This document shows, piece after piece, positions 38,212-59,833 of a stretch of 64,000 bases of DNA. The stretch is taken from NCBI GenBank assembly GCA_000799755.1, contig JUHI01000008.1:1-64000 (forward strand), written 5' to 3'. How positions within the stretch are numbered: the stretch's first letter is position 1; each line of letters opens with the position of its first letter. The translations under genes were made by a program, and so were the position numbers. Source of the DNA: Martinezella tropici. Its GTDB lineage: Bacteria; Pseudomonadota; Alphaproteobacteria; Rhizobiales; Rhizobiaceae. Below the pieces are notes generated by a model, which saw only the letters and a program-made list of their open reading frames with translations, searched no databases and was not told the DNA's origin.

Positions 38212-40869
38212 TCACTCCGCCGCCGCAGTCAGGCAGCCCTCGATGATGGCGCGGATCTCGGCGCGGCAGGAGCCGCAATTGGTCCCGGCATTAAGCTCCT
38301 TGCCGACGGCTTCGACGCTGTGACAGCCGCCCCGAATGGCCGCGACGATCTGATTGACGCCGACGCTGAAGCAGGAGCAGACCGTCGCACCCGCGTCGAC
38401 GGTATCTGCTCCCGGTCTGCCTGCGATAAGCGCGAACCGCTTTCTGAGATCGCCATGTGACGCCGAGAGCTGGACGATTGCCCAATTTCGAGCGACTGCA
38501 ACGGGCTGCCGGGCGATGAAGAGGGCTGCAAGCAGTCGCTCGCCATCGAAGAAGGCAAGGCGAAGGTCTCCGGAGGCTTGATCGGCGTAGCCGAGCGGTT
38601 CGAGGTCGGCTGCTATGTCGAATGTCGAGCGGCACCAGCCGATCCAGTCGTCGGGTGTCCTGTCGAATGCAAGCTCGGTTCGCCAGCCGCCATCGGCCTT
38701 GGCGAGCGCCCAATAGTCGCAGTCGAGATCACGCGGCTTTGCCGCGGAGACGGCGAAGCAATAATGCGATGCCTGGAAACGACGTGCGCCAACCGCGACA
38801 TTCTTTGAAGCAGGCTGACCGGATATCGGGTCGATGACCGGGGCGACCACGGTGTCGATCCGGGCCTTGGCCGCAAAGCTGTCATTCCAATGCATCGGCA
38901 CGAACAGGCTGCCGCGCGCCTGTCGCTCCGTCACCAAAGCGCGGACGATCACCTTGCCGTACAGGCTCTCGATCTCGATCAGGCTGGCTTCCGCGACGCC
39001 TATCTCGATCGCGTCGCGTGGATGAATTTCGGCGAAGGGTTCGGCAATGTGAGCCGATAGCCGCGGGCTCTTGCCGGTGCGCGTCATCGTATGCCAGTGA
39101 TCGCGAACGCGACCGGTATTGAGGGTCAGAGGAAAGCGACTGTCGGTTCGATCGCTTGCCGGCGGCTCAATGGCGACGAAACGCGCCTTGCGATCGGGAT
39201 GATAGAATCCGCCGGCTGCAAAGAAGCGCGTGAGCTTCGGCGGCGCTCCGGCAGGCTGCGGCCATTGGAAGGGCTGTAATGCCTCATACTCCTCCGGAAC
39301 GATCGCGTCATAAGCACCAATGTCGAAATCGCGGCTGCCCTCGTTTTCGAAACCGGAGAGGCCTGCGTGCTCGGCGAAAATCTCAGCATTCGACTGAAAG
39401 TGGAAGGCCTCGGAAAATCCCATGCGACGGCCGACCTCGGCCATTTGCCACCAGTCGGGTCTAGCCTCGCCGGGTGATGCCAGAAATTGCCGCTGCCTGG
39501 AGATCCGCCGTTCGGAATTCGTGACAGTGCCGTCCTTTTCGCCCCAGCCGAGCGAGGGCAGCAGCACATGGGCGTGGCGTGTTGTGTCCGTTTCGCGCAG
39601 GACGTCGGAGACGACGACGAAGGGACAGGCCTTTATGGCCGCCTCGACGGCATCGGCATCCGGCATCGAGACGACCGGGTTGGTCGCCATGATCCACAGC
39701 GCCTTGATGCGGTCGTCCGCGACGGCGCGAAACATATCGACCGCCTTCAAGCCCGGCTTGGCGGCAATCCGCGGGGACCGCCAGAAGCGCTGCACACGAT
39801 CTCGGTCTTCAGCACTCTCGACCGCCATATGAGCGGCAAGCATGTTGGCGAGCCCGCCGACCTCGCGGCCGCCCATGGCATTCGGCTGGCCGGTCAGCGA
39901 GAACGGCCCCATTCCGGGCCTGCCTATGCGGCCGGTCGCCAGATGGCAGTTGATGATCGCATTGACCTTGTCGGTGCCGGACGAGGATTGGTTGACGCCC
40001 TGGCTGTAGCAGGTAACGACCTTCTCGGTTTGGGCAAATAGCCGATAGAATTCGCGAAGCTGCATGGCGGGCAAGCCAGTCAGCTCAAGCACACAGTTGA
40101 ACGACAGCGAACTGGCGGCAGCAAAAGCCTCGGCAAATCCGCCAGTATGTTCGGCAATGTAATTCTGGTCGATGGCATTGCTTGCGATCAGATGCTCGAA
40201 AAGACCTAGGAAAAGGGCGACATCTCCATCGGGGCGGATCGCCAGATGCAGGTCGGCGATATCGCAGGTCATGGTGCGGCGTGGATCGATGACAACGATC
40301 TTCATGGTCGGCCGCGCCGCCTTTGCTGCTGCCAGCCGCTGATAGATGACCGGATGGCACCAGGCGAGATTGGAGCCGGTGAGGATGACGAGGTCGGCAA
40401 GCTCGATATCCTCGTAGGTGCCTGGCACCGTGTCTGCGCCGAAGGCGCGACGATGGCCGGCGACGGAGGACGACATGCAGAGCCGCGAGTTCGTATCGAT
40501 ATTGCCGGAGCCGATAAAACCCTTCATCAGCTTGTTGGCGACGTAATAATCTTCCGTCAGCAGCTGGCCGGAGACATAGAAGGCAACGGAATCAGGTCCG
40601 TGCTCGGCAATCGTCTCGCTGAAGCGTTTCGCCACAAGATCGAGCGCCTCATCCCAGCTTACCCTCCGACCGGCGATTTCGGGGTGGAGCAGGCGGCCCT
40701 CGAGATCAAGGGTTTCGCCGAGCGCCGAGCCCTTCGAGCATAGGCGCCCGAAGTTGGAGGGATGATCGGGATCGCCCTTGACGGAGACCTTGCCGTCATC
40801 ATCGACACTGGCGATGACGCCGCAGCCCACGCCGCAATAGGGGCAGGTGGTTTTGGTTTCAGCGGACAT
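38212..40869 (-). CDS. nasA: Assimilatory nitrate reductase, catalytic subunit
   Basis: An 885-residue molybdopterin enzyme reducing nitrate to nitrite in the cytoplasm. The N-terminus binds a 4Fe-4S cluster through Cys9, Cys12, Cys16 and Cys44 (CPYCGVGC ... RLCSKG). The molybdenum-bis-MGD domains follow (SRLCMSSSVAGHRRAFGAD, where the Cys ligates Mo; QGVNQSSSGTDKVNAIIN; GPFSLTGQPNAMGGREVGG). The last 60 residues add a BFD-type 2Fe-2S domain (CSC...CGSC), as in NasA-type enzymes of proteobacteria, so the protein can probably take electrons directly from a ferredoxin- or flavin-type donor; no separate NasB-type reductase gene is nearby. Last gene of the nitrate operon. Confidence 0.93.
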   Translation of the reverse strand: MSAETKTTCPYCGVGCGVIASVDDDGKVSVKGDPDHPSNFGRLCSKGSALGETLDLEGRLLHPEIAGRRVSWDEALDLVAKRFSETIAEHGPDSVAFYVSGQLLTEDYYVANKLMKGFIGSGNIDTNSRLCMSSSVAGHRRAFGADTVPGTYEDIELADLVILTGSNLAWCHPVIYQRLAAAKAARPTMKIVVIDPRRTMTCDIADLHLAIRPDGDVALFLGLFEHLIASNAIDQNYIAEHTGGFAEAFAAASSLSFNCVLELTGLPAMQLREFYRLFAQTEKVVTCYSQGVNQSSSGTDKVNAIINCHLATGRIGRPGMGPFSLTGQPNAMGGREVGGLANMLAAHMAVESAEDRDRVQRFWRSPRIAAKPGLKAVDMFRAVADDRIKALWIMATNPVVSMPDADAVEAAIKACPFVVVSDVLRETDTTRHAHVLLPSLGWGEKDGTVTNSERRISRQRQFLASPGEARPDWWQMAEVGRRMGFSEAFHFQSNAEIFAEHAGLSGFENEGSRDFDIGAYDAIVPEEYEALQPFQWPQPAGAPPKLTRFFAAGGFYHPDRKARFVAIEPPASDRTDSRFPLTLNTGRVRDHWHTMTRTGKSPRLSAHIAEPFAEIHPRDAIEIGVAEASLIEIESLYGKVIVRALVTERQARGSLFVPMHWNDSFAAKARIDTVVAPVIDPISGQPASKNVAVGARRFQASHYCFAVSAAKPRDLDCDYWALAKADGGWRTELAFDRTPDDWIGWCRSTFDIAADLEPLGYADQASGDLRLAFFDGERLLAALFIARQPVAVARNWAIVQLSASHGDLRKRFALIAGRPGADTVDAGATVCSCFSVGVNQIVAAIRGGCHSVEAVGKELNAGTNCGSCRAEIRAIIEGCLTAAAE

Positions 40870-41088: not shown

Positions 41089-41418
41089 CTACTCCGCCGC
41101 CATCATCAGGCTTTCGAGCGCGATAAAGAGAGCGCCATCCTCGTTGCGGATGGGAATGGTGCGCACCTCGCCCTGGTCGGCGCCAAGCGCCTTGCCGGTT
41201 TCGAGCGAGATCACCCAGTTGTGCAGCGGGCAGGTGACGGCCGCGCCGTGAACGATGCCTTGGCTGAGCGGTCCACCCTTATGCGGGCAATGATCCTCGA
41301 TGGCGAACACCTCGTTTTCAGCGGTGCGGAAGACAGCGATCTTGCCCTGCGGGGTCTTCACGCAGCGTGCCCCGCGCAGAGGGATGTCCGAGATATCGCC
41401 GATTTCAACCCAATTCAT
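41089..41418 (-). CDS. nirD: Nitrite reductase (NADH) small subunit
   Basis: A 109-residue Rieske-type protein. The 2Fe-2S ligands are Cys44, His46 (CPHKGGPLSQG), Cys63 and His66 (CPLHNW). This short form is the usual NirD partner of NirB in assimilatory NADH-nitrite reductase and helps pass electrons or stabilise the large subunit. The ATG at 41418 has GGAGAG upstream; longer reading frame beyond it runs into nirB. It starts 10 bases after the nirB stop. Confidence 0.94.
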   Translation of the reverse strand: MNWVEIGDISDIPLRGARCVKTPQGKIAVFRTAENEVFAIEDHCPHKGGPLSQGIVHGAAVTCPLHNWVISLETGKALGADQGEVRTIPIRNEDGALFIALESLMMAAE

Positions 41419-41428
41419 GTCGCTCTCC

Positions 41429-43879
41429 TCACTCGGCGGCCTGCGGGAAGCCAACCGTCGCCATCGGCCGGAATTCATGCTTGTCCTTGCCGGAGACACG
41501 CTCCGACCAGGGATCGACCTGCGCGAACTTCTGGCTGAAAACGAAGCGCTCGTAATAAGCCCTACGCTTTTCCTGATCCTGCATGATCTGGCGGCGGATC
41601 TCGTCGAGACCGATGCGCTTGGCCCATTTGTAGATGCGCTCGAGATAGCGACCCTGCTCGCGATACATCTGTGTCAGCGCCACGATGTGCTCGAGCGCCT
41701 CGTCTTCCGTCTTGACCAGGCCAAGCACCTCGGTGCCCTTGATGTCGAGGCCGGCGGCACCGGCGAAATGGATTTCGAAGCCGCTGTCGACGCAGATGAC
41801 GCCAATGTCCTTGCAGGTCGCCTCGGCGCAGTTTCGCGGACAGCCGGAAACGGCCATCTTCAGCTTGGCCGGTGTCCAAGAGCCCCACATGAATTTCTCG
41901 ATGCGGATGCCGAGGCCGGTGGAATCCTGCGTGCCGAAGCGGCACCAGTCGGAGCCGACGCAGGTCTTCACCGTGCGCAGGCCCTTGGCATAGGCTTGGC
42001 CTGAAATGAAGCCGGCCTTGCCGAGGTCGGCCCAGACGGCGGGCAGGTCCTCCTTCTGCACGCCGAGCAGGTCGATACGCTGACCGCCCGTCACCTTCAC
42101 CATGGGTATCTCGAATTTGTCGACGACGTCGGCGATGGCGCGCAGTTCGTTCGAGCTGGTGACGCCGCCCCACATGCGCGGCACGACCGAATAAGTGCCG
42201 TCCTTCTGGATGTTGGCGTGCACGCGTTCATTGATGAAGCGCGACTGGTAGTCGTCGGCATATTCGTCCGGCCAGTCGCAGACGAGGTAGTAGTTCAGGG
42301 CCGGGCGGCACTTCGCGCAGCCGCAGGAGGTCTTCCATTCAAGTTCCTGCATAACAGCAGGAATTGTCTTCAACCCTTTGGCTTTTATCAATCTTCTGAC
42401 ATCGTCTTGGCCAAGTTCGGTGCAGGCGCACATCGGCTGCACGGCTTTGGGATTGTAGGCATCGCCAAGCGTGATCGACATCAGCTGTTCGACAAGGCCC
42501 GTGCAGGAACCGCAGGAGGCCGAGGCCTTCGTGTGAGCTCTGACATCGTCGAGCGATGTCAGGCTCTTGGCCGATATGGTTGACGTAATCTTGCCCTTGC
42601 AGACGCCGTTGCAGCCGCAGATTTCCGCATCATCCGGCAAGGCTGCAACGGCCGCCATAGGGTCCAGCGGCGACCCTCCCTGATAGGCCTGACCGAAGAT
42701 CAGGGTCTCGCGCATCTCGGAAATGTCGGTCGCCTTCTTCTTCAGGTCGTTGAACCAGGCGCCGTCGGCTGTCTCGCCGTAGAGCACCGTGCCGATGATT
42801 CTGTTGTCCTTCAGGACCAGGCGCTTGTAGACCCCGGCTGCCGCGTCGCGCAGGACGATCTCCTCGCGGTCGTCGCCATCGGCGAAGTCGCCGAGCGAAA
42901 ACAGGTCGATGCCGGTCACTTTCAGCTTCGTCGGCGTGTCCGCATGCACGAAGGCGGCGCCGGTTTCACCTGCCAGATGCGAGGCGGCGACACGTGCCAT
43001 TTCGTAAAGCGGGGCGACGAGGCCGTAGACCATCCCGCCGACTTCGGCGCATTCGCCAAGCGCCATGATGCTGCCGTCCGAGGTCTGCATGCCGTCATCG
43101 ACGACGATGCCCCGGTTGACGGCGATGCCTGCCTCCTTGGCAAGGCCAATATTGGGACGAATGCCGACGGCCATGACAACGAGCGTAGCGGGGACCACGC
43201 GCCCATCGTCGAGTTCGATCCCTTCGACCTTGCCGTCACCGACGATCGCCTTGGTGTTGGCCTTGGTGACGACCTTGATGCCGCGCTCCTCGACGGCCCT
43301 TTGCAGGAGATAGCCGGCGGCCGGGTCGAGCTGACGCTCCATGAGCGTCGGGTGCACATGGAGAACAGTGACATCCATGCCTCGCAGGCTGAGGCCGGCC
43401 GCTGCTTCGAGACCGAGCAGACCGCCACCAATGACAACAGCTTTCTCGCGCGATTGGGCGGCGAGCAGCATCGCCTGCACATCGTCGAGGTCGCGATAGG
43501 TGATGACCCCGCGCAATTCCTTGCCCGGAACCGGAATGATGAAGGGGACGGAGCCGGTCGCGATGACGAGCTTGTCGTAGCTCTCGGTCACACCGTGATC
43601 GGACGTAACGGTCTTGGCGACACGGTCGATGGCGACGATCTTGTGCCCCTTGTAGAGGGTGATGCCGTGCTTGATGTACCAGCCGTCGCCGTGGATGATG
43701 ATCTGCTCAAAATCCTTTTCGCCTGATAGCACCGGCGACAGCATGATGCGGTCGTAATTGACGCGCGGTTCGGCATTGAAGATCGTGACCTCGTAGAGGC
43801 CGGGCGCCTTTTCCAGCAGATGCTCCAGCATGCGCCCTGGCGCCATGCCGTTGCCGATGATGACGAGTTTCTGGGTCAT
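41429..43879 (-). CDS. nirB: Nitrite reductase (NADH) large subunit
   Basis: An 816-residue flavo-sirohaem enzyme that reduces nitrite to ammonium. Order of domains: FAD- and NADH-binding regions (KLVIIGNGMAPGRMLEHL and KAVVIGGGLLGLEAAAGLSLRG), two BFD-like 2Fe-2S cysteine regions (CGCNGVCKGK ... ASCGSCTGLVEQL; CACTELGQDD ... TSCGCAKCRPALNYYL) and the sirohaem/4Fe-4S domain with TCVGSDWCRFG and SGCPRNCAEA (CX5C ... CX3C). GGAG precedes the ATG. It begins four bases after the transport ATPase stop, so translation is probably coupled. Sirohaem synthesis genes are not in this window. Confidence 0.95.
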   Translation of the reverse strand: MTQKLVIIGNGMAPGRMLEHLLEKAPGLYEVTIFNAEPRVNYDRIMLSPVLSGEKDFEQIIIHGDGWYIKHGITLYKGHKIVAIDRVAKTVTSDHGVTESYDKLVIATGSVPFIIPVPGKELRGVITYRDLDDVQAMLLAAQSREKAVVIGGGLLGLEAAAGLSLRGMDVTVLHVHPTLMERQLDPAAGYLLQRAVEERGIKVVTKANTKAIVGDGKVEGIELDDGRVVPATLVVMAVGIRPNIGLAKEAGIAVNRGIVVDDGMQTSDGSIMALGECAEVGGMVYGLVAPLYEMARVAASHLAGETGAAFVHADTPTKLKVTGIDLFSLGDFADGDDREEIVLRDAAAGVYKRLVLKDNRIIGTVLYGETADGAWFNDLKKKATDISEMRETLIFGQAYQGGSPLDPMAAVAALPDDAEICGCNGVCKGKITSTISAKSLTSLDDVRAHTKASASCGSCTGLVEQLMSITLGDAYNPKAVQPMCACTELGQDDVRRLIKAKGLKTIPAVMQELEWKTSCGCAKCRPALNYYLVCDWPDEYADDYQSRFINERVHANIQKDGTYSVVPRMWGGVTSSNELRAIADVVDKFEIPMVKVTGGQRIDLLGVQKEDLPAVWADLGKAGFISGQAYAKGLRTVKTCVGSDWCRFGTQDSTGLGIRIEKFMWGSWTPAKLKMAVSGCPRNCAEATCKDIGVICVDSGFEIHFAGAAGLDIKGTEVLGLVKTEDEALEHIVALTQMYREQGRYLERIYKWAKRIGLDEIRRQIMQDQEKRRAYYERFVFSQKFAQVDPWSERVSGKDKHEFRPMATVGFPQAAE

Positions 43880-43883
43880 GATA

Positions 43884-44681
43884 TCACTCCGCGGCTTCGA
43901 CGAAGCGGTGGCGTTCGTAGAGGAACTTCAGCACGGCTTCGCGGCATTTGAGGTAGGTTCGGTCGGAGGCAAGCTCGATGCGGTTGCGCGGCCGTGCGAT
44001 TGGCACTTCAAGGATATCGCCGATATGGGCGGCCGGGCCGTTGGTCATCATGACGATGCGGTCGGAGAGCAGCACCGCCTCGTCGACATCATGGGTGATC
44101 ATGACAATGGTGCTGCCGAGGCGGTCGTGAATTTCCATCACGGCATCCTGAAGATGGGCACGGGTGAGCGCGTCCAGCGCCCCAAAGGGCTCGTCGAGCA
44201 GCAGAATCTTAGGCTGCATCGCAAGCGCCCGGGCAATCCCGACGCGCTGTTTCATGCCGCCTGATATTTCCGAGGGACGCTTGTCCTTGGCATGCGCCAT
44301 CTGCACGAGATCGAGATTGCGCATCACCCAGTCATGGCGCTCGGCCTTGGTCTTGGTGCCGCGAAACACTTTCGAGACGGCAAGATTGACGTTCTCGTAG
44401 ACGCTGAGCCAGGGCAGCAGGCTATGGTTCTGGAAGACCACGGCCCGATCCGGGCCGGGCGCGTTGACCTCGCGGTTCTCAAGCAGCACTGCGCCGGCGG
44501 AGACCGGCGTCAGGCCGGCGATGAGGTTGAGCAGGGTCGACTTGCCGCAGCCGGAGTGGCCGATGATCGAGACGAATTCGCCCTTGTCGATGACGAGTTC
44601 GATGCCCTTCAGGACTTCGGCCCGCTGGCCGCCGCGATCGAAGTATTTGTCGATATGATCGAGCTTCAGATAGGCGCTCAT
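43884..44681 (-). CDS. nrtC: Nitrate ABC transporter ATP-binding protein
   Basis: A 265-residue ATPase of the nitrate/sulfonate/taurine family: Walker A GHSGCGKST, Q-loop FQNHSLLPWLSVYENV, signature EISGGMKQRVGIARAL, Walker B ILLLDEPFGALDALTR and H-loop THDVDEAVLLSDR. It lacks the C-terminal nitrate-sensing binding-protein domain of cyanobacterial NrtC and so equals NrtD in size; rhizobial operons usually call it nrtC. It drives uptake through NrtB. GGAG lies upstream of the ATG, 10 bases after the permease stop. Confidence 0.93.
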   Translation of the reverse strand: MSAYLKLDHIDKYFDRGGQRAEVLKGIELVIDKGEFVSIIGHSGCGKSTLLNLIAGLTPVSAGAVLLENREVNAPGPDRAVVFQNHSLLPWLSVYENVNLAVSKVFRGTKTKAERHDWVMRNLDLVQMAHAKDKRPSEISGGMKQRVGIARALAMQPKILLLDEPFGALDALTRAHLQDAVMEIHDRLGSTIVMITHDVDEAVLLSDRIVMMTNGPAAHIGDILEVPIARPRNRIELASDRTYLKCREAVLKFLYERHRFVEAAE

Positions 44682-44691
44682 AGGGTTCTCC

Positions 44692-45588
44692 TCAATTGCT
44701 CGTCATGCCGCGGGTCACGACGGCACCAAGGCCTGCGACCAGACGATCGAGGACAAAGCCGGTGATGCCGATATAGGCGAGCGCCACGATGATGTCGGGC
44801 AGGCGCGAGGAGTTCCACGCGTCCCAGATGAAGAAGCCGATGCCGACGCCGCCCGTCAGCATTTCGGCGGCAACGATCGCAAGCCAGGAAAGCCCGGCGC
44901 CGATGCGCAGTCCGGTGAAGATGTAAGGGGCTGCCGCCGGCACCATGATGCGGAAGAAGAACTCGATCTGGTTCAGCCGCAGCACCTTGGCGACGTTGCG
45001 ATAATCCTGCGGAATATTGCGCACGCCGACCGCCGTGTTGATGATGACGGGCCAGATCGAGGTGATGAAGATCACGAAGATCGCCGAGGGGTTGGAGTTC
45101 TGGAAGGCTGCGAGCGACAGCGGCAGCCAGGCTAGCGGCGGCACGGTGCGCAGCACCTGGAAGATCGGGTCGAGACCACGCATCGCCCAGACCGATTGCC
45201 CGATCACCGCGCCGATCAGCACGCCGGCGACAGCGGCAAGGCCGAAGCCATAGGCGACGCGTTGCAGGGAGACGAGCACGCGCCAGCCAAGCCCGATATC
45301 CTGCGGCCCATTGTAGAAGAAGGGATAGACGATGAGGTCATAGCTGTCCTGCCAGACCTGCGATGGCGGCGGCAGGCTGGCACCCGGCTGCTCGCAGAGC
45401 AGCTGCCAGATCGCGAGCAGAAGTACCAGGACTACCAGGGGCGGGAGGATGCTACGCAAGATCGAGGCAGCAATGCGGGCCGGTTCGATGCGGCGAGCCG
45501 GGCGGGCCGCCAATGTCACGACATGGCTCTTTGCGGGAGCAGGCGCTTGCGCAACGGCGGCTTGCTGTTTGCGGGCGGTTACGGACAT
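44692..45588 (-). CDS. nrtB: Nitrate ABC transporter permease
   Basis: A 298-residue inner-membrane permease. After a cytoplasmic alanine/proline-rich leader of about 40 residues it has six helices, starting ILPPLVVLVLLLAIWQLL, with the family segments VWQDSYDLIVYPFFYNG, GQSVWAMRGLDPIFQVLRTVPPLAWLPLSLAAFQ and the ATPase-docking loop NIPQDYRNVAKVLRLNQIEFFFRIMVPAAAPYIFTG. The start was set at 45588 behind AGGA; the frame is open further upstream but that part antisenses and overlaps nrtA. It works with the NrtA binding protein and the NrtC ATPase. Confidence 0.92.
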   Translation of the reverse strand: MSVTARKQQAAVAQAPAPAKSHVVTLAARPARRIEPARIAASILRSILPPLVVLVLLLAIWQLLCEQPGASLPPPSQVWQDSYDLIVYPFFYNGPQDIGLGWRVLVSLQRVAYGFGLAAVAGVLIGAVIGQSVWAMRGLDPIFQVLRTVPPLAWLPLSLAAFQNSNPSAIFVIFITSIWPVIINTAVGVRNIPQDYRNVAKVLRLNQIEFFFRIMVPAAAPYIFTGLRIGAGLSWLAIVAAEMLTGGVGIGFFIWDAWNSSRLPDIIVALAYIGITGFVLDRLVAGLGAVVTRGMTSN

Positions 45589-45622
45589 TGAACGAATCCT
45601 TTTTGGAAGAGAGTGCCGAGCA

Positions 45623-46921
45623 TTACGACGCCACCTTGATCGAGAGGCTTTCGAGGTATGCAGTGGGGTTTTCGGGGTCGAAGACCTTGCCGTCGAAGAA
45701 GGTTTCCTTGCCGCGCGAGGCCGATGTGGGAATGTCCGATGCGGCAACGCCGAGATCCTTGGCGGCGTCGCGCCAGATATCCTGGCGGTTGACCTGACCG
45801 ACCAGCGTCTTGATGTCGGTGTCGGGTGCGAACTTGCCCCAGCGGATGTTCTCGGTGATGAACCAGGCGTCATGGCTCTGATAGGGATAGGAAACGCCGC
45901 CCTTCCAGAACTTCATGTAGAGATCGGTGCCCTTGGCGATGCGGCCGTTGCCGTAGTTGATGTCGCCCTTCAAGCGGCCGAGCACGTCCTTGGGCGGCAC
46001 GTTGAACCACTGCCGCTTGCCGAGGATGGTGGCCATCTCCTCCTTATTGGCCATGCTGTCGCACCATTGCTGGGCTTCCATGACGGCCATCAGCAATGCC
46101 TTGGCGGCCTTCGGGTTCTTCTCGATCCAGTCGGCGCGCATCCCGAGAGCCTTTTCCGGATGGCCCTTCCAGATCTCGCCGGTCGTGCAGGCGGTAAAGC
46201 CGATGCCCTGGTTGACGAGCTGTTCGTTCCAGGGCTCGCCGACACAAAAGACGTCCATGTTGCCGACCTTCATGTTCGCCACCATCTGCGGCGGCGGCAC
46301 GACGATGGTCGAGACGTCCTTGTCGGGATGGATACTGCCGGCCGCCAGCCAATAGCGAATCCATAGATCATGCGTGCCGCCCGGGAAGGTCATGGCTGCC
46401 TTGATCTCCCGGCCTGCGGCTCTCTTCGCGTCGAAGACGGCTTTCAGCTTGGATGAGTCCAGTTGGACGCCGGTTTCCGCATATTCCTTGGCGACCGAAA
46501 TGCCCTGGCTGTCGTAGTTGAGGCGGGCAAGGATCGCCATCGGCACGGGTTGGTTGTTCTGCGTCACCTTGCCGGTGTGCATGAGGTAGGGGAGCGGCGA
46601 GAGGATGTGCGCGCCGTCGATGCCGTTTGCCGCGCCGCCAAGCACAAGATTATCGCGCGTCGCGCCCCACGAGGCCTGCTTGCCCACATCGACGTCGGGG
46701 AGGCCGTGTTTCTCGAACAGACCTTTTTCCTTGGCGATGATGAGCGGTGCGGAGTCGGTCAGCGCGATATAGCCGAGCTTTGCTCCGGACACTTCCGGTC
46801 CGGCCGCCGCTGCAAAGGCGCCGGAGGGGAAAGCCGTCTTGACGGCGCCGATCAGGGCTGCCGTGGCGGACGTCTTCAACAGGTTTCGGCGGGTAACGCC
46901 ACCGGATAGAATTGTTTTCAC
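45623..46921 (-). CDS. nrtA: Nitrate ABC transporter substrate-binding protein, Tat-exported
   Basis: A 432-residue nitrate-binding protein. It begins at a GTG (46921) with GGGGAAA upstream; the first 40 residues form a twin-arginine signal (GVTRRNLLKTSATAALIGAVKTAFPSGAFA). The mature part has the NrtA/NasS pattern: KLGYIALTDSAPLIIAKEKGLF, NLVLGGAANGIDGAHILSPLPYLM, TFPGGTHDLWIRYWLAAGSI, VVPPPQMVANMKVGNMDVFCVGEPWNEQLV and GKRQWFNVPPKDVLGRLKGD. It should capture nitrate in the periplasm. First gene of the operon, behind the sigma-54 promoter and a 175-base leader. Confidence 0.94.
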   Translation of the reverse strand: MKTILSGGVTRRNLLKTSATAALIGAVKTAFPSGAFAAAAGPEVSGAKLGYIALTDSAPLIIAKEKGLFEKHGLPDVDVGKQASWGATRDNLVLGGAANGIDGAHILSPLPYLMHTGKVTQNNQPVPMAILARLNYDSQGISVAKEYAETGVQLDSSKLKAVFDAKRAAGREIKAAMTFPGGTHDLWIRYWLAAGSIHPDKDVSTIVVPPPQMVANMKVGNMDVFCVGEPWNEQLVNQGIGFTACTTGEIWKGHPEKALGMRADWIEKNPKAAKALLMAVMEAQQWCDSMANKEEMATILGKRQWFNVPPKDVLGRLKGDINYGNGRIAKGTDLYMKFWKGGVSYPYQSHDAWFITENIRWGKFAPDTDIKTLVGQVNRQDIWRDAAKDLGVAASDIPTSASRGKETFFDGKVFDPENPTAYLESLSIKVAS

Positions 46922-47099
46922 TTGCAGTTTCCCCTTGTTTTGCTCGTGACGCTTGGATTTCGGGCATAAAAAAACGCCGCTCGGTTGTTGCTGCCCGGGA
47001 CAGGAACGGAGTCCCCGGGGCAAGAACCTTGCGACGTCGATGTCTTTGCGAGCGCGTTTCCCGCGCATTGCCTGCCTTGATCGCCATTGATCGCGGCGA
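46922..47099 (-). ncRNA. Nitrate operon leader RNA, candidate NasT antiterminator
   Basis: The expected transcript from the sigma-54 promoter has about 175 untranslated bases. Near its 5' end a hairpin with stem GCC-GC-GATC / GATC-AA-GGC carries the six-base loop AATGGC, which has A at position 1 and G at position 4, as in RNA sites of ANTAR proteins. A second possible hexaloop, ATCGAC between GAC and GTC, lies about 45 bases on. Then comes a long GC-rich stem (TTGCCC and GGGAC arms) and, 47 bases before the nrtA start, a run of seven T (complement of 46968-46974) preceded by GCGGCG, which could pair with CGCCGC at the leader's start. This fits NasT-controlled antitermination but the fold is my inference. 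Confidence 0.55.
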
Positions 47100-47107
47100 G
47101 ATTAGAT

Positions 47108-47126
47108 AAGCAAACTGTATGCCAGT
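47108..47126 (-). promoter_or_regulatory. Sigma-54 (RpoN) promoter of the nrt-nir-nas operon
   Basis: Read on the minus strand, TGGC-ATACAGT-TTGC gives the -24 GG and -12 GC elements at exactly the spacing of the RpoN consensus (TGGCAC-N5-TTGC). The segment also forms CAAACTG-GCATA-CAGTTTG, a perfect inverted repeat. Transcription would begin around 47099. RpoN control implies an activator such as NtrC, linking the operon to nitrogen limitation; I found no clear NtrC site in 47125-47290. Confidence 0.7.
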
Positions 47127-47290
47127 TTGTGGAGGCGATATCATCCCATTGTAATTTCTGGATTATTCAGCGAGGCAGCACGCGGGATTACCTCGCAGGC
47201 AATTGCGATTTCTGCAAATATTTTGAGCGGATGCCGCACCCTCAATTTTCGATTTTGCGCTTATTCTGTGCAGCGCAGAATAGCCGGACG

Positions 47291-48589
47291 CTAAATGTCG
47301 TCGCCCGAAGCCAATGTCACATGTGTCGTCTTCACGGCGAATCCGGCGACATAGGCAGCCATACCCGCGGGATCGAAAACATGTCCGTCCATGAAGCGGT
47401 CGCCGTCTTCGTCGCCCTCAATGCGAATATCGGCATTGTCGGGCAGCGCCTCGTTCCCGAGCGCCAGCCGATAAAGGTCGGGACGGTAGGCCGAGGCTGC
47501 CATCTTCATGTTCTGCTCGGACAGCGTGCTCTGCCCCCAGCGTATCATCTGGCTGAAGATCCAAAGCGCCTGGCTCGGCCGCGGATAATTGGCGAAGCCG
47601 GCATGGAAGCTGAAATATCGATCGATTACTCGCCGATTGCCCCTGGCATCGAGGTTGAACTCTCCTGCAAGGACGTGGCGGATGATGTCAATCGGGGCGG
47701 CGATATAGCGCTGATCGGCAAGCGCCTCGGCAAGGGCGTCGTGATTTTCCGCCCGGTCGCACCAGCGCGCCGCCGCGTCTAGCGCCACGATGAGGCGCGA
47801 AACGGTTTCGGGATGGCTTTCGGCCCATTCCGGCCGCATGCCGATGACCTTTTCCGGCGCCGAAGGCCAGATATCCTGCTTGGCCGCAACGATGCGGCCA
47901 ACGCCACGCTCGGAAGCGACCATGTTCCAGGGGGCGCCGACGCAAAAGCCGTCAATGGCGCCGGCCGCAAGTGCATCCGATGTGAGGGGCGGGGGCACGA
48001 CGACAAGCTTTACGTCCCGGTCGGGATCAATGCCGCCGGCCGCCAGCCAATAGCGGAATTCGTAATTATGCGAGGAGAACGGGTAGGTCATGCCGAGCGT
48101 CGGCGGCTGCTCCCCGCGCTCCTTCATGTTCCTTACGACTTTCGCGAGCGCCTGCGCATTTTCCAAGGCGCTCGCGTGATCGGAAAGGCCTGTCTCGTTG
48201 CACATGCGGTCGAACAGCCGCGTCGAGAGAGTGATGGCATTGCCGCCGCAGCCGAGCGAGAAAGGGGTGATCGTCGGCGAGGGATTCGAGCCGAGCCCGA
48301 GCATGGCTGCGACCGGCATCGGGGAGAGCATGTGGGCGATGTCGAATTGGCGAAAGGCAAGCCGGTCTCGGACATTGGCCCAGGAGACGTCCTTGACGAG
48401 ATCGAGTGCGATACCCTCCTTGCGGGCAAAGCCGAATTCTGCAGCCGCGATCAGGACCGAAGCGTCAACGAGTGGAATGAAGCCTGCGCGCAATATGCGT
48501 GGACCTTCGCTCGCAATCCGTGCGGGCGCGGGAGGATTGCTGTTGCCCGCCTTTTGCCTTCCGGTGGGAGGCGCTGCTTGCACTCTCAT
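47291..48589 (-). CDS. nasS: Nitrate/nitrite sensor NasS
   Basis: A 432-residue protein clearly related to NrtA (ILRAGFIPLVDASVLIAAAEFGFARKEGI, DIAHMLSPMPVAAMLGL, LGMTYPFSSHNYEFRYWLAAGGIDPDRDVKLVVVPPP, GAIDGFCVGAPWNMVASERGVG) but without any signal peptide, so it stays in the cytoplasm. That is the NasS layout: it holds NasT inactive until nitrate or nitrite binds. A GGAG site favours the ATG at 48589 over a GTG at 48595. It follows nasT by 55 bases and precedes the nitrate operon on the same strand. A weak hairpin (ATTCTG/CAGAAT, 47263-47281) lies just after its stop. Confidence 0.9.
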   Translation of the reverse strand: MRVQAAPPTGRQKAGNSNPPAPARIASEGPRILRAGFIPLVDASVLIAAAEFGFARKEGIALDLVKDVSWANVRDRLAFRQFDIAHMLSPMPVAAMLGLGSNPSPTITPFSLGCGGNAITLSTRLFDRMCNETGLSDHASALENAQALAKVVRNMKERGEQPPTLGMTYPFSSHNYEFRYWLAAGGIDPDRDVKLVVVPPPLTSDALAAGAIDGFCVGAPWNMVASERGVGRIVAAKQDIWPSAPEKVIGMRPEWAESHPETVSRLIVALDAAARWCDRAENHDALAEALADQRYIAAPIDIIRHVLAGEFNLDARGNRRVIDRYFSFHAGFANYPRPSQALWIFSQMIRWGQSTLSEQNMKMAASAYRPDLYRLALGNEALPDNADIRIEGDEDGDRFMDGHVFDPAGMAAYVAGFAVKTTHVTLASGDDI

Positions 48590-48644
48590 ATTCACTCCGA
48601 TGTCTCCCGTTTCAGGGTGACGGCCGAGATGGAGCTTGCGACAC

Positions 48645-49232
48645 TCACATCAGCAACCCCGCTGCGGTTACGACACTTTGCGCGATTTCGGACATCTTCT
48701 TCTTTTCGTTCATGGCCGTCTGCCGCAGCAGCGCGAAGGCCTCGTCCTCCGAAAGACCGCGCATCTTCATCAGGATGCCCTTCGCACGCTCGACGACCTT
48801 GCGTTCTTCCAGCGCCGATTTGGCTTCCGCCAGCTCTCGCTGCAGCCGGTTGAAGGCGTTGAAACGGCTGACGGCCATGTCGAGGATCGGTTTCACCCGC
48901 TCCTTCTTCAGCCCGTCGACGATGTAGGCGGAAACGCCGGCCTCGACCGCCGCCTCGATGGAGGCCGTATCGGAGCGGTCGACGAACATGGCGATCGGTC
49001 GCCCCACGGTTCGCGTCAGCTGGAACAGATGCTCCATCATGTCCCGGTTCGGATTTTCGAGATCGATAATAATGACGTCGGGGCGAAGCGTCTCGATCGT
49101 GCGTGCGACACCCTGCACCTCGTGGATAACAGTCACGCGCGCATGGCCCGCCTCCCGCAAACCCTCTTCGATGATCGAGGCACGGATCGTGTTTTCGTCG
49201 ATCACAAGAATGGTCAGATCGAGACGGCTCAT
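48645..49232 (-). CDS. nasT: Antitermination response regulator NasT (ANTAR domain)
   Basis: A 195-residue regulator with an N-terminal receiver-like domain (LTILVIDENTIRASIIEEGL, RPDVIIIDLENPNRDMME with Asp57 in the phosphoacceptor position) and a C-terminal ANTAR RNA-binding domain (LEERKVVERAKGILMKMRGLSEDEAFALLRQTAMNEKKKMSEIAQSVVTAA). NasT binds two-hairpin leader RNAs of nitrate genes and prevents termination once released from NasS. The leader at 46922-47099 is the obvious target. Confidence 0.93.
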   Translation of the reverse strand: MSRLDLTILVIDENTIRASIIEEGLREAGHARVTVIHEVQGVARTIETLRPDVIIIDLENPNRDMMEHLFQLTRTVGRPIAMFVDRSDTASIEAAVEAGVSAYIVDGLKKERVKPILDMAVSRFNAFNRLQRELAEAKSALEERKVVERAKGILMKMRGLSEDEAFALLRQTAMNEKKKMSEIAQSVVTAAGLLM

Positions 49233-49278
49233 ACCGTCTTTATGACGCAGCGCAGCAAAATCGGCAAGTCATTCGCCG

Positions 49279-49313
49279 AAATATTAGGCGGAAATATTGG
49301 TTGCCTAATATTT
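49279..49313. repeat. AT-rich inverted repeat between the siderophore and nasT genes
   Basis: AAATATTAGGC and GCCTAATATTT are perfect 11-base arms around a 13-base centre that itself contains AAATATT. It lies 46-81 bases upstream of the nasT start and 30-65 bases after the stop of the siderophore-interacting protein gene, so it may end the fhu transcript or be an operator for nasTS. Confidence 0.55.
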
Positions 49314-49343
49314 ATTCATATTTGTGTTGGTTTGGCTAATTCC

Positions 49344-50399
49344 TCAGCACCGCTGCCAATAGGCGGCGATGCTGAAGCTGCCCGGCTCGCGCGCGATCTC
49401 CGTTTTGACGAAGGTACGGATGGCGCGGGCCTGCTTCTGTTCGCAAGCCGCCCAGATGTAGGTTTCGGGGTCGGCCGCCGGCACGAGATCGCGCATGATG
49501 CGCTCGAGCGTGTCGGTCGTCCCTGCCGGCGCATCATTGCGATGCAGCCAGGTGAGGTTCATCGATGTGCTGGAGATGAGGGGCTGCTCCTCTTCCTTGT
49601 TCGCCACTTCCAGAAATACGCGCAAGTCTGCATCGGCCGGCATGGCGGCCGCGATGCGGGCAATGGCGGGCAAAGCCGTCTCGTCGCCGGCGAGAATGAG
49701 CTTGCGAGCCGCCGGAACGCCACCGCCGCCTGGCCCGATGAGGCCGGCGCGATCACCCGGGCGGGCCGTCATCGCCCAGGTTGCTCCCGGTACGTTGTCG
49801 CCTTCATGCACGACGAAGTCGATGTCCATTTGACTGCGGGCAAGGTCGATGTTGCGGATCGTATAGGCACGCAGGGTCAGTTCATCCTCGCCCTTCGGCC
49901 AATGGATGCGGCCGTCCGGCTCCGTATGCGGCCAGACCGGCTCGCGTCCCTTTGGCGGAATGAGGAGGCGAACATGCAGTCCACCCTCGACGAAATGCCT
50001 GGCGTCATCGGTCGCGACTACGACCCGGCGCATATGCGGGGTGATGTCGTAGGCATCGACGACGCTGATCTCACGGAAGTTCGGTATGGTGGACGGCTGC
50101 GGTCCATCGGCCCAGTTCAGGTCGAGTGCATTGCCTGTGGAGAGTTCGAAGAGGTTCTCGACGACCATGCTGCGTATGGTGAAGAGCATCGCCGCCGTCG
50201 GGCAACGCAGCTTGATATCGAGGCGATCGTCGCTGACGGCGATGTCGGCGCTGCCGATGACGGTTTCAAGGCGTGCACCTGCGTCACTCCGCGTAATCGT
50301 GACATGTTCGGCAAAGCGCGCGCAGAACTGATCCAGCAACTGGCCGGCATCTTTGTGCGTGGCGACGCCGGAAGCGGTGAAATCCCTTGCGTGCATCAT
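49344..50399 (-). CDS. Siderophore-interacting protein with N-terminal DUF2218 domain
   Basis: A 351-residue cytoplasmic ferric-siderophore reductase. Residues 1-100 form a DUF2218 domain (ATHKDAGQLLDQFCARFAEHVTI ... LRCPTAAMLFTIRSMVVENLFEL). The rest is a SIP-type flavin reductase: RAYTIRNID (FAD-binding RxYT/S), MDIDFVVHEGDNVPGATWAMTARPGDRAGLIGPGG and LILAGDETALPAIARI, with a C-terminal YIWAACEQKQARAIRTF...SFSIAAYWQRC block. It would release iron from the imported ferric siderophore by NAD(P)H-dependent reduction. Its ATG overlaps the fhuB stop by four bases (ATGA) and has AAGGAG upstream; the open frame beyond that is a shadow of fhuB. Last gene of the fhu run. Confidence 0.9.
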   Translation of the reverse strand: MMHARDFTASGVATHKDAGQLLDQFCARFAEHVTITRSDAGARLETVIGSADIAVSDDRLDIKLRCPTAAMLFTIRSMVVENLFELSTGNALDLNWADGPQPSTIPNFREISVVDAYDITPHMRRVVVATDDARHFVEGGLHVRLLIPPKGREPVWPHTEPDGRIHWPKGEDELTLRAYTIRNIDLARSQMDIDFVVHEGDNVPGATWAMTARPGDRAGLIGPGGGGVPAARKLILAGDETALPAIARIAAAMPADADLRVFLEVANKEEEQPLISSTSMNLTWLHRNDAPAGTTDTLERIMRDLVPAADPETYIWAACEQKQARAIRTFVKTEIAREPGSFSIAAYWQRC

Positions 50400-52396
50400 T
50401 GCTTTGTCTCCTTGCGGGTCAGGAACCAGATGAGATAGGGGCCGCCGATCAGAGCCGCGAACAGGCCGACGGGCACCTCGTAGGGAAAGATGACGATCCG
50501 CGACAGCCAATCGGCGAGCGTCAGCAGCATGGCGCCGAGCAGCAGTGTTGCCGCCAACTGCCTGCCGGTTTCGCGGAAACCGATCAGGCGGGCGAGATGC
50601 GGCGCGACCAATCCTGTCAGGCTGAGGGGGCCGACGAGGAAGGACGGAATGGCGGTCAGGAGAGCGGCCAGGACAGCCAGAGCGAGCCGGCTCATCGCAA
50701 CCGACAGGCCGACTGAGCGGGAGACGCTGCCTCCAAGCGGCAGGACATCGAACCACCGCTTGAGAAGCGGCAACAGCGGAAGAAGAAGCACGGCCGAGAG
50801 AAGTCCCGTCCAAGCCTCCAAGGAACCGGCGCGGTTGGTCGATCCCGACAGCCAGGTCAGCAGGAGATAGCTGCGCAGATCGCCGCGGGAGAGGACGACG
50901 GTGACGATCGCCATCGATAGCGCGCCAATGGCGACGCCCGAAAGCAGCAGGCGTTCCGGGCCGAAGCCGCCGCGAGCGCTGATCGCCATCATGGCCAGGA
51001 ATGCAACGAGGGCGCCGATCGTCATCGCGGCGATCGTGATGGCGGGTGAGGGGAAAGCAAAGAGGAAGAGTGCCGCCGTCAGTCCGGCGCCACCGCCGGC
51101 GCTGATGCCCAGGACTTCGGGGCCTGCGAGGGGATTGCCGGTCAGTCGCTGCATGATGAATCCGGCCGCTGCGAGCATGGTGCCGGCAGTGGCGGCAACG
51201 ACGGTTCGCGGTAGCCGGAAAGGCAACAGCTCCCAGAATTGGTTGCCGATAGCCATCTGCCAGCCATCGATTCCGCGCCCGATCGAAAGCGCAAGAACTA
51301 TCAGGAAGAGGCAGCTGACGACGAGCAAGACAAGCGCTCGTCCGGGGGCGGCGAGATTTAGCCTGGTTCGAAGGGTAGCATCCGCACGCAGCGCATTGGC
51401 CGAATGCAGCCTCGGCAAGAGCAGAAGCAGGAGCGGTCCGCCAAGAAGTGCTGTGGCAGCACCGGTGGGGGCAAGGTCCGTGAAGCCGGGCGACAGCAGC
51501 TGCACGGCACAATCCGTAAGGAACAGCAGCCCAGCGCCGGCGATCGGGGCGGCGATCAGCAATTGTCCGGTGCGGCGCGCTCCGCAAAATCTTGCAAGAT
51601 GAGGTGCTGCAAGGCCGAGAAAGCCGATAACGCCGACCTGCGCCGTCACCGAGGCCGCAAGCCAGACGGCGATAAGAAGAATGGCGAAGCGCATGGCGTG
51701 CAAGGCAAGGCCAAGGCTCTTTGCTCTGCTGTCGTCCAGACTCATGACCGTAAGCGGTCGAATGAGTACAAGGGCTGCGGCAAAGCCGATGACGAGACGG
51801 GGTGCAAGGGTGATGACGCCATCCCAGCTTTGCTGATTGAGTGCGCCCGCGCCCCAGATGAAGACGGACATGGCATATTCGCCACGCGCAAGGATGATGG
51901 TGACGCTGAGCGCGGCGGCGACCAATGTCACCATCATGCCGCAGAGCGCCACCGTCACCGGATCGAGGCCACGGCGCCAGCTTAGAGCGAGAACGATGAG
52001 GACGGCCGCAAGCCCGCCGGCAAAGGCAGAAATCTCGCGCGGCAGGCCGATGAGCAGCGGAGAGAGACCAACGGCGATCGTCATCGCCAGTTGCGCGCCG
52101 GCGGTGATCCCGAGTGTCGAGGCGTCGGCGATCGGATTGCGCAGGACCCTTTGCAACAGAGCGCCGGAAAGGCCGAGCGCCGCCCCGGCGACGATCGCGA
52201 TCGCCGAACGCGGCAGCAGGCTATCGGTGAGCAGAATATGGTTGAGGGTGGCCGCCCCAGGCATGTCAGGGGCAAGGTGCGGGCGCAGGACGATCAGCGC
52301 CGCAAAGGCGAGAATGCAGATAGCGCCCAGCAGCGCGCCGTTGCGCGCCAGCGATCTGCCTTTCGCAATCAGCGGGCGATCAACCATTCCATGCAC
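50396..52396 (-). CDS. fhuB: Ferric siderophore ABC transporter permease, fused FhuB type
   Basis: A 666-residue permease made of two FecCD domains in one chain, the FhuB arrangement. First half: LPRSAIAIVAGAALGLSGALLQRVLRNPIADASTLGITAGAQLA and GVIGFLGLAAPHLAR; second half: LPRTVVAATAGTMLAAAGFIMQRLTGNPLAGPEVLGISAGGGAG and GLVAPHLARLIGF. About 20 membrane helices are predicted. It imports ferric hydroxamates through the inner membrane. A GTG start at 52396 with GGGAGG upstream is preferred, overlapping the fhuD stop by 17 bases; an ATG at 52387 is the alternative. No ATPase gene accompanies it. Confidence 0.93.
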   Translation of the reverse strand: MHGMVDRPLIAKGRSLARNGALLGAICILAFAALIVLRPHLAPDMPGAATLNHILLTDSLLPRSAIAIVAGAALGLSGALLQRVLRNPIADASTLGITAGAQLAMTIAVGLSPLLIGLPREISAFAGGLAAVLIVLALSWRRGLDPVTVALCGMMVTLVAAALSVTIILARGEYAMSVFIWGAGALNQQSWDGVITLAPRLVIGFAAALVLIRPLTVMSLDDSRAKSLGLALHAMRFAILLIAVWLAASVTAQVGVIGFLGLAAPHLARFCGARRTGQLLIAAPIAGAGLLFLTDCAVQLLSPGFTDLAPTGAATALLGGPLLLLLLPRLHSANALRADATLRTRLNLAAPGRALVLLVVSCLFLIVLALSIGRGIDGWQMAIGNQFWELLPFRLPRTVVAATAGTMLAAAGFIMQRLTGNPLAGPEVLGISAGGGAGLTAALFLFAFPSPAITIAAMTIGALVAFLAMMAISARGGFGPERLLLSGVAIGALSMAIVTVVLSRGDLRSYLLLTWLSGSTNRAGSLEAWTGLLSAVLLLPLLPLLKRWFDVLPLGGSVSRSVGLSVAMSRLALAVLAALLTAIPSFLVGPLSLTGLVAPHLARLIGFRETGRQLAATLLLGAMLLTLADWLSRIVIFPYEVPVGLFAALIGGPYLIWFLTRKETKQ

Positions 52397-53273
52397 GGGT
52401 CAGCCCTCCCGCAAGGAGATCGGCAAAACGCGCCGCTGCCGGCAACGCGCCATAGGGGTTGATGGAGCCGAGCGTGAGGACGCGGCCGTGCTGCACTGGT
52501 GGCAGCGCTTTCCAGAAGGCGCTTTGTTGCAATTCCACAAGCGCTTCTGCCGGATGTGGCGGAATGAGGACGATCCATGCTTCCGGCATGGCGGCGAGCC
52601 GCTCGATGCCGACGGGCGCGGTCGCCGAATAGCTCGTCAGCTCCGGCCAGGCATTGGCAAGGCCCGTGCGGCTCAGAACCTCGCCGAACATGCTGTCTGA
52701 GCCGAAGACGCGGAAGTGGTTGGCATCGCCGAGATTGATCGGCAGGATTGGGCGATGATCGCCCTTGCTGAACCTGCTGCGATAAGTGTCGAGCTTTTCT
52801 CGCGTTGCGTCGACGAGCGCGCGACCGGTGGCCAGCCCGAGCCGCTCACCGATCGCAAGCGTCATCTCTTCAGAACGCTGGTACGGGCTGGCTCCTGGTT
52901 GATAGACTGCATGGCTTTCGACCGGCGCGATCAGCCGCAGGCGCTCATCGGCCCAGGCATAGAAATTCGAATTGAAGATCAGGTCCGGCTTGGCGGCATA
53001 AAGCATTTCGAAATTCGGCGTGCCGCGCAGCCCGAGATCGGCGACTCCTGCGGGGATGGCAGGGGTAACGGCAACGTCCCGGAACTGCAGCAGCTCGGTG
53101 CCGGCGACCACATTGGCGCCGATCGAAAGCAGGGTTTCCAGAATGGCCCAATCGAGCGTTGCCACGCGCGGACCCGTCGCGGCGCGCGCCGGCCTCAAAC
53201 CGGCAAGTGCACCGGCGCCTGCAATGGCAAGGAATTGCCGGCGCGACAGCCTGTGAGCGCTTCTTGCCGTCAT
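52380..53273 (-). CDS. fhuD: Ferric hydroxamate-binding protein, FhuD type, Tat-exported
   Basis: A 297-residue class III siderophore-binding protein. The first 32 residues are a twin-arginine signal (RLSRRQFLAIAGAGALAGLRPARAA). The mature domain has RVATLDWAILETLLSIGANVVAG, the D-x-G strand GVADLGLRGTPNFEMLYAAKPDLIFNSNF, and PVGIERLAAMPEAWIVLIPPH, matching FhuD proteins of about 265-300 residues that bind ferrichrome-type hydroxamates in the periplasm. It is 100 bases downstream of the receptor gene and overlaps fhuB. Confidence 0.9.
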   Translation of the reverse strand: MTARSAHRLSRRQFLAIAGAGALAGLRPARAATGPRVATLDWAILETLLSIGANVVAGTELLQFRDVAVTPAIPAGVADLGLRGTPNFEMLYAAKPDLIFNSNFYAWADERLRLIAPVESHAVYQPGASPYQRSEEMTLAIGERLGLATGRALVDATREKLDTYRSRFSKGDHRPILPINLGDANHFRVFGSDSMFGEVLSRTGLANAWPELTSYSATAPVGIERLAAMPEAWIVLIPPHPAEALVELQQSAFWKALPPVQHGRVLTLGSINPYGALPAAARFADLLAGGLTRAWNG

Positions 53274-53344
53274 GCTGGCATCGCCTTTGGTTTCAACGAA
53301 TTCGAGGATTGCCTTGCGGCAATCCCCGGTCCTTTGCCATGATC

Positions 53345-53370
53345 GAGAAGAAAAGTATACTTTATTTCTC
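53345..53370. terminator. Inverted repeat after fhuA
   Basis: GAGAA and TTCTC arms flank a perfect AAGTATACTT palindrome just 3 bases after the fhuA stop on the minus strand. It could be a partial terminator that limits fhuD-fhuB expression relative to the receptor. Confidence 0.4.
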
Positions 53371-53373
53371 AAC

Positions 53374-55560: not shown

Positions 55561-55620
55561 TTCCCTATTTGTCCCGAATTCTTGCGCCCGTTCGGCCCTG
55601 CGGCCGATCCCTCGATAAGA

Positions 55621-55635
55621 TGAGCAATTAACTCA
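55621..55635. promoter_or_regulatory. IRO-box-like element (RirA site) upstream of fhuA
   Basis: TGAGCAATTAACTCA matches the TGA-N9-TCA iron-responsive operator used by RirA in Rhizobiales, and is nearly palindromic throughout. Its place, 61 bases before the fhuA start, fits repression of the receptor operon when iron is plentiful. Confidence 0.7.
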
Positions 55636-55727
55636 TATTTACAAACGCGGCTTGTCTGTCACGGGGGAAATTGAATGTTTTTGGGCAATTCTCCGCGAAG
55701 CGCGCAATTGCTCGTGGAGTGTGGTTT

Positions 55728-58787: not shown

Positions 58788-58800
58788 CTCAACGGAAATC

Positions 58801-59824: not shown

Positions 59825-59833
59825 ACAAGGCCC

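Follow-up and report, generated by a model that had tools for sequence, protein, structure and literature searches.

How transcription of the nitrate assimilation operon nrtABC-nirBD-nasA is switched on was the question raised by positions 46,922 to 47,126 of the window, that is, the whole stretch of 64,000 nucleotides of Martinezella tropici analysed here (contig JUHI01000008.1). An earlier note, made from the letters alone, had proposed a sigma-54 promoter followed by a NasT-type leader RNA. All the features that it named exist, on the minus strand, and the observation of the leader was confirmed. The conserved features were the same as those of the published ANTAR antiterminator design, which argues well for NasT antitermination at a sigma-54 promoter. 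Judged by comparison of related sequences, the leader is very probably a NasT-controlled transcription attenuator. Attenuators of this kind are known; what sets the present one apart as a variant is its long, folded linker together with a first hairpin whose place is locked to the promoter.

The gene order on the minus strand was nasT-nasS, promoter, leader and nrtABC-nirBD-nasA. As the earlier note had it, nasT, encoding an ANTAR protein, and nasS were immediately upstream of the leader, and the domain profiles bore this out. The product of nasT (48645..49232, minus strand as for all genes given here; 195 aa) was a REC-ANTAR antiterminator, with 75.7 bits for PF03861 (ANTAR) and 38.7 bits for PF00072 (REC), and that of nasS (47291..48595) was a candidate nitrate/nitrite sensor of the NMT1_2 family (PF13379, 252.7 bits), for which nitrate binding is a prediction. 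The locus therefore has the NasS-NasT arrangement, a REC-ANTAR protein beside a nitrate-binding-type protein. Downstream of the leader, nrtA (45623..46921, GTG start at 46921) encoded an NMT1_2-family nitrate-binding protein (PF13379, 348.5 bits). A putative ribosome-binding site, AAGGGGA, was located at 46930..46936, and AAGGGG or GAGG-type blocks preceded the start in the inspected relatives. The next genes were nrtB (permease, 44692..45591; TIGR01183, 305.1 bits), nrtC (ATPase, 43884..44681; TIGR01184, 342.5 bits), nirB (41429..43879; TIGR02374, 893.1 bits) and nirD (41089..41499; TIGR02378, 109.6 bits), all above the model cut-offs. The last gene (38212..40869) was a candidate nasA-type molybdopterin nitrate reductase with the domains PF00384, PF04879, PF01568 and PF04324; its exact name was taken from the context, because the score stayed below the respective cut-off for each of the 25 NCBIfam models listed.

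The -24/-12 element was found where the earlier note had placed it, as TGGCATACAGTTTGC at 47124-47110 (47110..47124, minus strand), and it was the sole TGGCAY-N5-TTGC match in the window. Shuffled windows contained 0.32 such matches on average, and 28 of 100 carried at least one, so the element alone is weak. Its strength comes from its presence ahead of the leader, with GG at -24, GC at -12 and fixed spacing, in 80 of 80 rhizobial loci (the best 80 of at least 538). Counted from the -12 position, transcription is predicted to start at about 47098, which gives a leader of about 177 nt up to the GTG at 46921, in agreement with the roughly 175 untranslated bases claimed before. Furthermore, the promoter TGG and A1 of the first hexaloop lay 36 nt apart in 76 of these best 80 of at least 538 loci, 35 nt in three and 37 nt in one. 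With the register so fixed, the 5' end of the RNA is expected at the 5' strand of the first hairpin or directly beside it. In a wider set, a hexaloop hairpin stood 33-55 nt on from 19 of 44 sense sigma-54-like sites, compared with one of six in the small antisense control. The main text of a start-site map of S. meliloti (PMC3616915) did not name nirB or nasT. Activation of the promoter by phospho-NtrC under nitrogen limitation is probable, and two possible sites were marked by position, TGCACAGAATAAGCGCA (47256..47272, minus strand, -148 from the promoter element) and CGCTCAAAATATTTGCA (47213..47229, minus strand, -105). Both were weak: the best scores against the NtrC consensus averaged 7.8 versus 7.2 in shuffles, and the second site was outside the two best matches of the window. 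Klebsiella nasF is a classical case of sigma-54/NtrC initiation combined with antitermination in response to nitrate, and the combination is therefore not new as such.

The leader began with a first hexaloop hairpin, HP1 (47074..47097, minus strand as for all leader parts), whose loop AATGGC at 47088-47083, with A1 and G4, was the one described in the earlier note. Its upper part read GATC-AATGGC-GATC (47092-47079), and the window copy had two mismatches. A spacer hairpin (47052..47066) separated HP1 from the second hexaloop hairpin, HP2 (GAC-AUCGAC-GUC, 47033..47044), and the hexaloop AUCGAC of the latter (47041-47036) turned the second possible hexaloop of the note into an actual one. The predicted intrinsic terminator (46968..47038) consisted of a 5' arm, GACGUCGC (47038-47031), inside HP2, a 3' arm, GCGGCGUU (46980-46973), and the seven-T run already noticed after the GC stem (46968..46974), 46 nt ahead of nrtA. 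The conserved partner of GCGGCG (46980-46975) was CGUCGC within HP2, with a predicted pairing probability of 0.999 (median) and 0.652 (lowest) in 57 leaders. Because CGUCGC overlaps the loop and the 3' stem of HP2, terminator and antiterminator are mutually exclusive. In predicted folds, HP2 cost 6.4 kcal/mol relative to the terminator in the window (median of 57 leaders 6.9, range 0.4-9.3). With this cost and a stem of 3 bp, HP2 must be held by protein or trapped kinetically.

The conservation of these parts was assessed from a NasT search of genome contigs, which gave at least 538 confirmed relatives. The best 80 loci were kept; their NasT proteins were 89-99% identical to that of the window, and they were labelled Rhizobium, Agrobacterium, Ensifer, Sinorhizobium, Xaviernesmea or Rhizobiales bacterium. 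The leader was followed by nrtA (at least 73% identical) in 51 of the best 80, and by an NrtA-like gene at 36% in L069 and L070. The alignment A1 held these 53 leaders and that of the window (54), together with L022, whose leader precedes a narK-type gene, and L067 and L075, whose leaders precede nirB, making 57 rows. The remaining 24 of the best 80 loci possessed a different, narK-type leader. A plasmid of the laboratory strain Rhizobium tropici CIAT 899 also carried a match to the leader, at 74% identity.

A1 and G4 were kept in both hexaloops, and the closing C-G pair in both hairpins, in 57 of 57 leaders. HP1 comprised nine pairs, six of them changed on both sides, with 93.3% of cells paired; its loop was AACGGC in 38 rows and AATGGC in 15, in addition to three rarer forms. 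In the spacer hairpin, four of the six pairs had changes on both sides and 92.3% of cells were paired; its loop varied and was mostly 7 nt long. The GAC/GUC stem of HP2 was invariant, and its loop followed A-N-N-GAC in seven forms, with positions 2 and 3 variable. Since HP2 and most terminator pairs never vary, they carry no covariation, and for HP2 the loop letters give the support instead. All ten counted pairs of the terminator base (GACGUCGC with GCGGCGUU, plus GG with CC) were possible in every row, and a run of six or seven T was present in all 57. Taken as a whole, the 25-pair structure was 95.8% paired with 11 pairs changed on both sides; none of 500 shuffles was as good on any measure. 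Related rows inflate pairing counts, and the slid controls, which keep this relatedness, reached at most 44.3% paired; the structure beat every one of them. Single-sequence folds predicted HP1 in 55, the spacer hairpin in 52 and the terminator base in all 57 leaders. Conservation in related genomes, on which the earlier note had staked its proposal, was thus found for the hexaloops (57/57) and for the terminator overlap (57/57). By this comparison, conservation extends to the promoter, the loops and their stems, the overlap with the terminator and the spacer hairpin, and these features support the two control layers envisaged for one operon, RpoN initiation (promoter in 80 of the best 80 of at least 538 loci) and NasT antitermination (57 leaders).

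The specificity of the arrangement was examined with a purpose-written detector that looked for two hexaloop hairpins in succession and, for the second of them, an overlap with the 5' arm of a terminator. The rule for the terminator was made less strict once, after the first version missed the leader of the window, and the totals given here are those of the less strict version. On both strands of the window it reported one place only, the NasT leader. In 1.28 Mb of order-1 Markov sequence, eight places had the second hairpin plus terminator and none had both hairpins. Both hairpins and the terminator were detected in 79 of 80 loci (best 80 of at least 538) and on none of the minus strands. The sole locus without a detected first hairpin was L020, in which the detector chose the wrong pairing; in L025 and L030 it used another terminator arm than expected. 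Among wider loci of the same class, 34 of 60 were positive and 26 gave no detection, compared with 0 of 56 antisense sequences; 34 of 60 is no class frequency, because the 60 were picked as nasT loci or hits of the covariance model R1 and include the genus and family of the window. Four wider loci with no nasT match were read on both strands. The overlap of HP2 and terminator also recurred in other families, and five loci of other families (L172, L175, L196, L176 and L194) possessed three A1/G4 hexaloop hairpins before one terminator. An Rfam search of 44000-60000 gave no family at its gathering score, and none was found in 20 wider loci. In the own genome, R1 matched only the place of the NasT leader at E<0.8, once per strand. 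In a class sample of 289 genomes, 11 other genomes were matched at E 0.1, among them L088, a genuine leader. L087, with a better E-value than L088, was rejected, as it lies by eye in an enoyl-CoA hydratase-like ORF, and L089, L090, L092 and L094 resembled L087 by eye. R1 is unspecific at low scores, and therefore no R1 counts were used outside Rhizobiales.

Dual-hexaloop ANTAR targets have been described for EutV/eut, NasR/nasF and AmiR/amiE (Ramesh et al. 2012, PMC3369931, available text), with the same A1/G4 hairpins and the second hairpin overlapping the 5' arm of the terminator. The closing C-G pair selected in the NasR SELEX (PMC7496416, available portion) was shared by both hairpins of the present leader. 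Mutual exclusion of terminator and antiterminator was likewise in agreement with the ANTAR systems treated in the available parts of PMC3369931, PMC7496416 and PMC8934654. All these features, namely two A1/G4 hexaloops, closing C-G pairs and a second hairpin that overlaps and excludes the terminator, were found in the 57 leaders. The leader of Klebsiella nasF and its binding by NasR are covered in the available part of PMC7496416; nasF uses the one-component NasR, whereas the rhizobial locus has NasS-NasT. Initiation by sigma-54 together with nitrate antitermination on one operon is common to nasF and the proposed rhizobial switch.

The linker between HP1 and HP2 was different. It measured 28-31 nt in the 57 leaders and contained its own covarying hairpin, whereas the linkers of Enterococcus faecalis eut are 5-12 nt, with 14 nt being harmful (PMC3369931, available text), and the curated actinobacterial target set permits 2-25 nt (PMC8164766, available text). 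Because its linker falls outside the published range, the leader is a variant and no standard member of the ANTAR targets. In a wider set of 55 rows, which includes the duplicate leaders L177/L224 and L166/L216, the linker to the nearest first hairpin measured 0-16 nt in 36 rows and 21-62 nt in the other 19. Of 18 distinct long linkers, 14 folded more stably than dinucleotide shuffles (p<0.05), with a Fisher p of about 1e-15 when related leaders are treated as independent; leaving aside L141, L170, L138, L190, L174 and L192, which were doubted by eye, 12 linkers gave p of about 2e-13. Folding of the long linkers is therefore supported. The bases outside the folded linker hairpin numbered 3-12 nt in L001 and L177-L181. 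An effective linker length was rejected as non-discriminating: shuffled linkers left as few bases outside hairpins (p_outside >0.15 in 17 of 18), and a folding that restores a particular spacing is accordingly unsupported. No ANTAR target with a folded linker was found in the open-licence literature searched, as far as its available text goes.

The following course would be in keeping with these features. Transcription by the RpoN polymerase would begin at HP1, with its 5' strand. When nitrate is lacking, NasS would hold NasT, as is known for the Paracoccus homologues; CGUCGC would then pair with GCGGCG in front of the U-run, and the polymerase would halt short of nrtA. Nitrate or nitrite would cause NasS to release NasT, which may grip the hexaloop of HP1 on its emergence and then hold HP2, the hairpin that contains the 5' arm of the terminator, so that the polymerase could read into nrtABC-nirBD-nasA. 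The folded spacer of 28-31 nt may keep both sites within reach of one NasT dimer.

Paracoccus denitrificans offers a close comparison, with nasTS likewise beside the genes, leader hairpins and the response to nitrate that is predicted here (PMC3795266, PMC5424462, available parts). There, NasT binds the nasA leader RNA, and nitrate-dependent release of NasT from NasS has been demonstrated (PMC3795266, available text). Mutation of the leader hairpin HI severely lowered expression and stopped growth on nitrate, while induction was mostly preserved when the second hairpin, HII, was mutated (PMC5424462, available text). No full pairing scheme was seen for Paracoccus in the available parts of these papers, whereas in the rhizobial leader the scheme was fixed by comparison. 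In Bradyrhizobium diazoefficiens, NasS-NasT controls nosR; narK and bjgb have a predicted NasT hairpin, yet their expression rises in the nasT mutant, and most NasT-affected genes have no predicted NasT hairpin (PMC6759348, available text); a predicted hairpin there does not assure activation. Either case, Paracoccus HII or Bradyrhizobium narK, could point to a smaller role for the second site than is assumed here. The available portion of PMC4724949 contained nothing on leader structure.

The narK-type leaders bear on the role of the two hairpins. In the 24 loci (L024, L041, L046-L049, L080 and others; feature at about 8060-8300), which group with R. leguminosarum and R. phaseoli, the promoter-proximal hexaloop hairpin was kept in 24 of 24, with a four-pair stem and A1/G4, and the old HP2 motif GAC-N6-GTC was absent from the searched stretch in 24 of 24. 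A second hairpin pair, typically GGCGUCC-AACGGC-GGGCGCC and CAGC-AAAGCC-GCUG, followed 46-140 nt further on with its own terminator. In L049, an MFS gene was followed directly by nirB, and 27 of the best 80 of at least 538 loci had no nrtABC between nasS and nirB at the thresholds used, indicating that the narK-type MFS gene occupies the place of nrtABC.

Such retention of the first hairpin fits the recruitment-hairpin model published for EutV (PMC8934654, available text), and so does another reading of the leader: HP1 might be a stand-alone recruitment hairpin at the 5' end of the RNA, from which NasT later moves to HP2, so that distance would matter little and the spacer hairpin would only prevent misfolding of the linker. 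The fixed promoter register also speaks for it, and we regard this hand-over as a serious possibility, if not the probable one. On the other side, EutV antitermination in vitro was abolished when 20 nt were added to the eutP linker (PMC8934654, available text), the spacer stem covaries, which fits a needed structure, and the 24 leaders come from a narrow group of related Rhizobium, so that retention could partly be recency.

The attenuator, with both sites proposed to lie within reach of one NasT dimer, is kept as the working reading, and a broader proposal can be attached to it tentatively. The alphaproteobacterial NasT leaders may form a distinct, split ANTAR target, with a recruitment hexaloop in the first 25 nt or so whose position is locked to the sigma-54 start, a folded spacer by which the NasT dimer gets over a linker that EutV could not bridge, and a first hairpin that works after loss of its partner. 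If so, NasT would load as the RNA leaves the polymerase and then be passed on to any terminator hairpin that comes next. The attenuator would give rhizobia a specific, testable nitrate switch. It also adds a natural exception to the EutV spacing rule, and the passage of an ANTAR dimer between hairpins could be tested with naturally tuned spacers.

That the structures act on RNA stability or on nrtA translation instead of termination is very unlikely. Protection of the RNA by a strong hairpin at its 5' end (+1) is conceivable, and ANTAR control is described as working at the level of translation or of transcription (PMC8164766, available text). Nevertheless, the T6-7 run came directly after the GC stem in 57 of 57 leaders, in the window 46 nt short of the start codon, and the recurrence of the HP2-terminator overlap in other families speaks against a stability or translation role. 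Moreover, a Sinorhizobium leader precedes nirB with the nrt genes gone, which is against a role in nrtA translation. As to operon REARRANGEMENT, leaders with nrtC/nrtA-like remnants behind them, recognised by eye, and then nirB were seen in S. fredii USDA 205 (L075) and E. aridi (L067). In S. meliloti BL225C (pSINMEB02, L227), the leader also stood before nirB; tblastn found no match to nrtC at 1e-5 between the two, where remnants were seen by eye only, and neither nasT nor nasS was matched within 5 kb on either side. The intact leaders before nirB were located at 5001-5181 in L227, 8286-8450 in L075 and 8297-8400 in L067. A leader that outlives nrtABC fits an operon-level switch acting in trans. 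In the available text of Ruiz et al. (2019, PMC6616083), regulation of the nitrate assimilation genes of S. meliloti is called 'not known yet'.

Closure of the terminator by the leader's own start, suggested in the earlier note, can be dismissed as extremely unlikely: the complementary letters CGCCGC (47098-47093) and GCGGCG (46980-46975) both exist in the window, and their helix appeared in the predicted window fold when HP2 was forced (a constraint inspected for the window only), but all six pairs were possible in only six of 57 leaders (the window, L016, L035, L040, L054 and L079), no pair was changed on both sides, 500 of 500 shuffles were as good, the mean predicted pairing probability was at most 0.001 in any leader, and five of the 5' bases sit in the covarying HP1 stem. 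Being complete in six rows, this helix is at best an extra and no conserved part; as modelled, it would belong to the read-through state in the window.

It is just as improbable that membership of the Rfam narK RNA family (RF03032) is all there is to the leader. RF03032 matched at the same place with 24.8 bits, which is below the gathering score of 43.2, and gave no match in the own genome at E 0.01. Its consensus opens with GGCaC-N5-UUGCU, after which come GGcagCC-AACGnn-GGcugCC and CGAC-AAAGAC-GUCG. When 398 genomes of the phylum were searched for the family, 29 of them gave 47 listed matches, of which 22 were above the cut-off; 30 matches were fetched (17 above, 13 below). Among the 17, a sigma-54-like start (lenient pattern) was present in 14, a terminator overlapping the second hexaloop hairpin in 13 and the first hairpin as well in 12; the corresponding counts for the 13, which include a leader of the window's genus (L224), were eight, eight and seven. 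From these starts and hairpins, much of the narK RNA resembles promoter DNA, and the remainder an ANTAR target; the family thus gains a likely identity. The order of sigma-54-like start, two A1/G4 hexaloop hairpins and terminator is the same as in the present leader, whereas the linker is 4-8 nt with no spacer hairpin (six above-threshold loci with linker reported), and the window leader lies below the cut-off. No paper identifying narK RNA as promoter plus ANTAR target was found among the open-licence papers searched. In the Rfam structure line, as seen with L197-L226, the second hairpin was unmarked as paired.

The genome possessed a second ANTAR gene, AmiR-like (PF21332), at G000:C25:47665-48246 (L228 3666-4247). 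It overlapped the end of a binding-protein-like ORF and preceded ABC-permease-like ORFs, the neighbours being named by eye, and no dual-hexaloop attenuator was found within the 14 kb inspected. In the window, nasT was adjoined at 49344-55560 (minus strand) by a siderophore-uptake-like cluster, in which a TonB receptor, a binding protein, a FhuB-like permease and a siderophore-interacting protein were recognised by eye from the translations.
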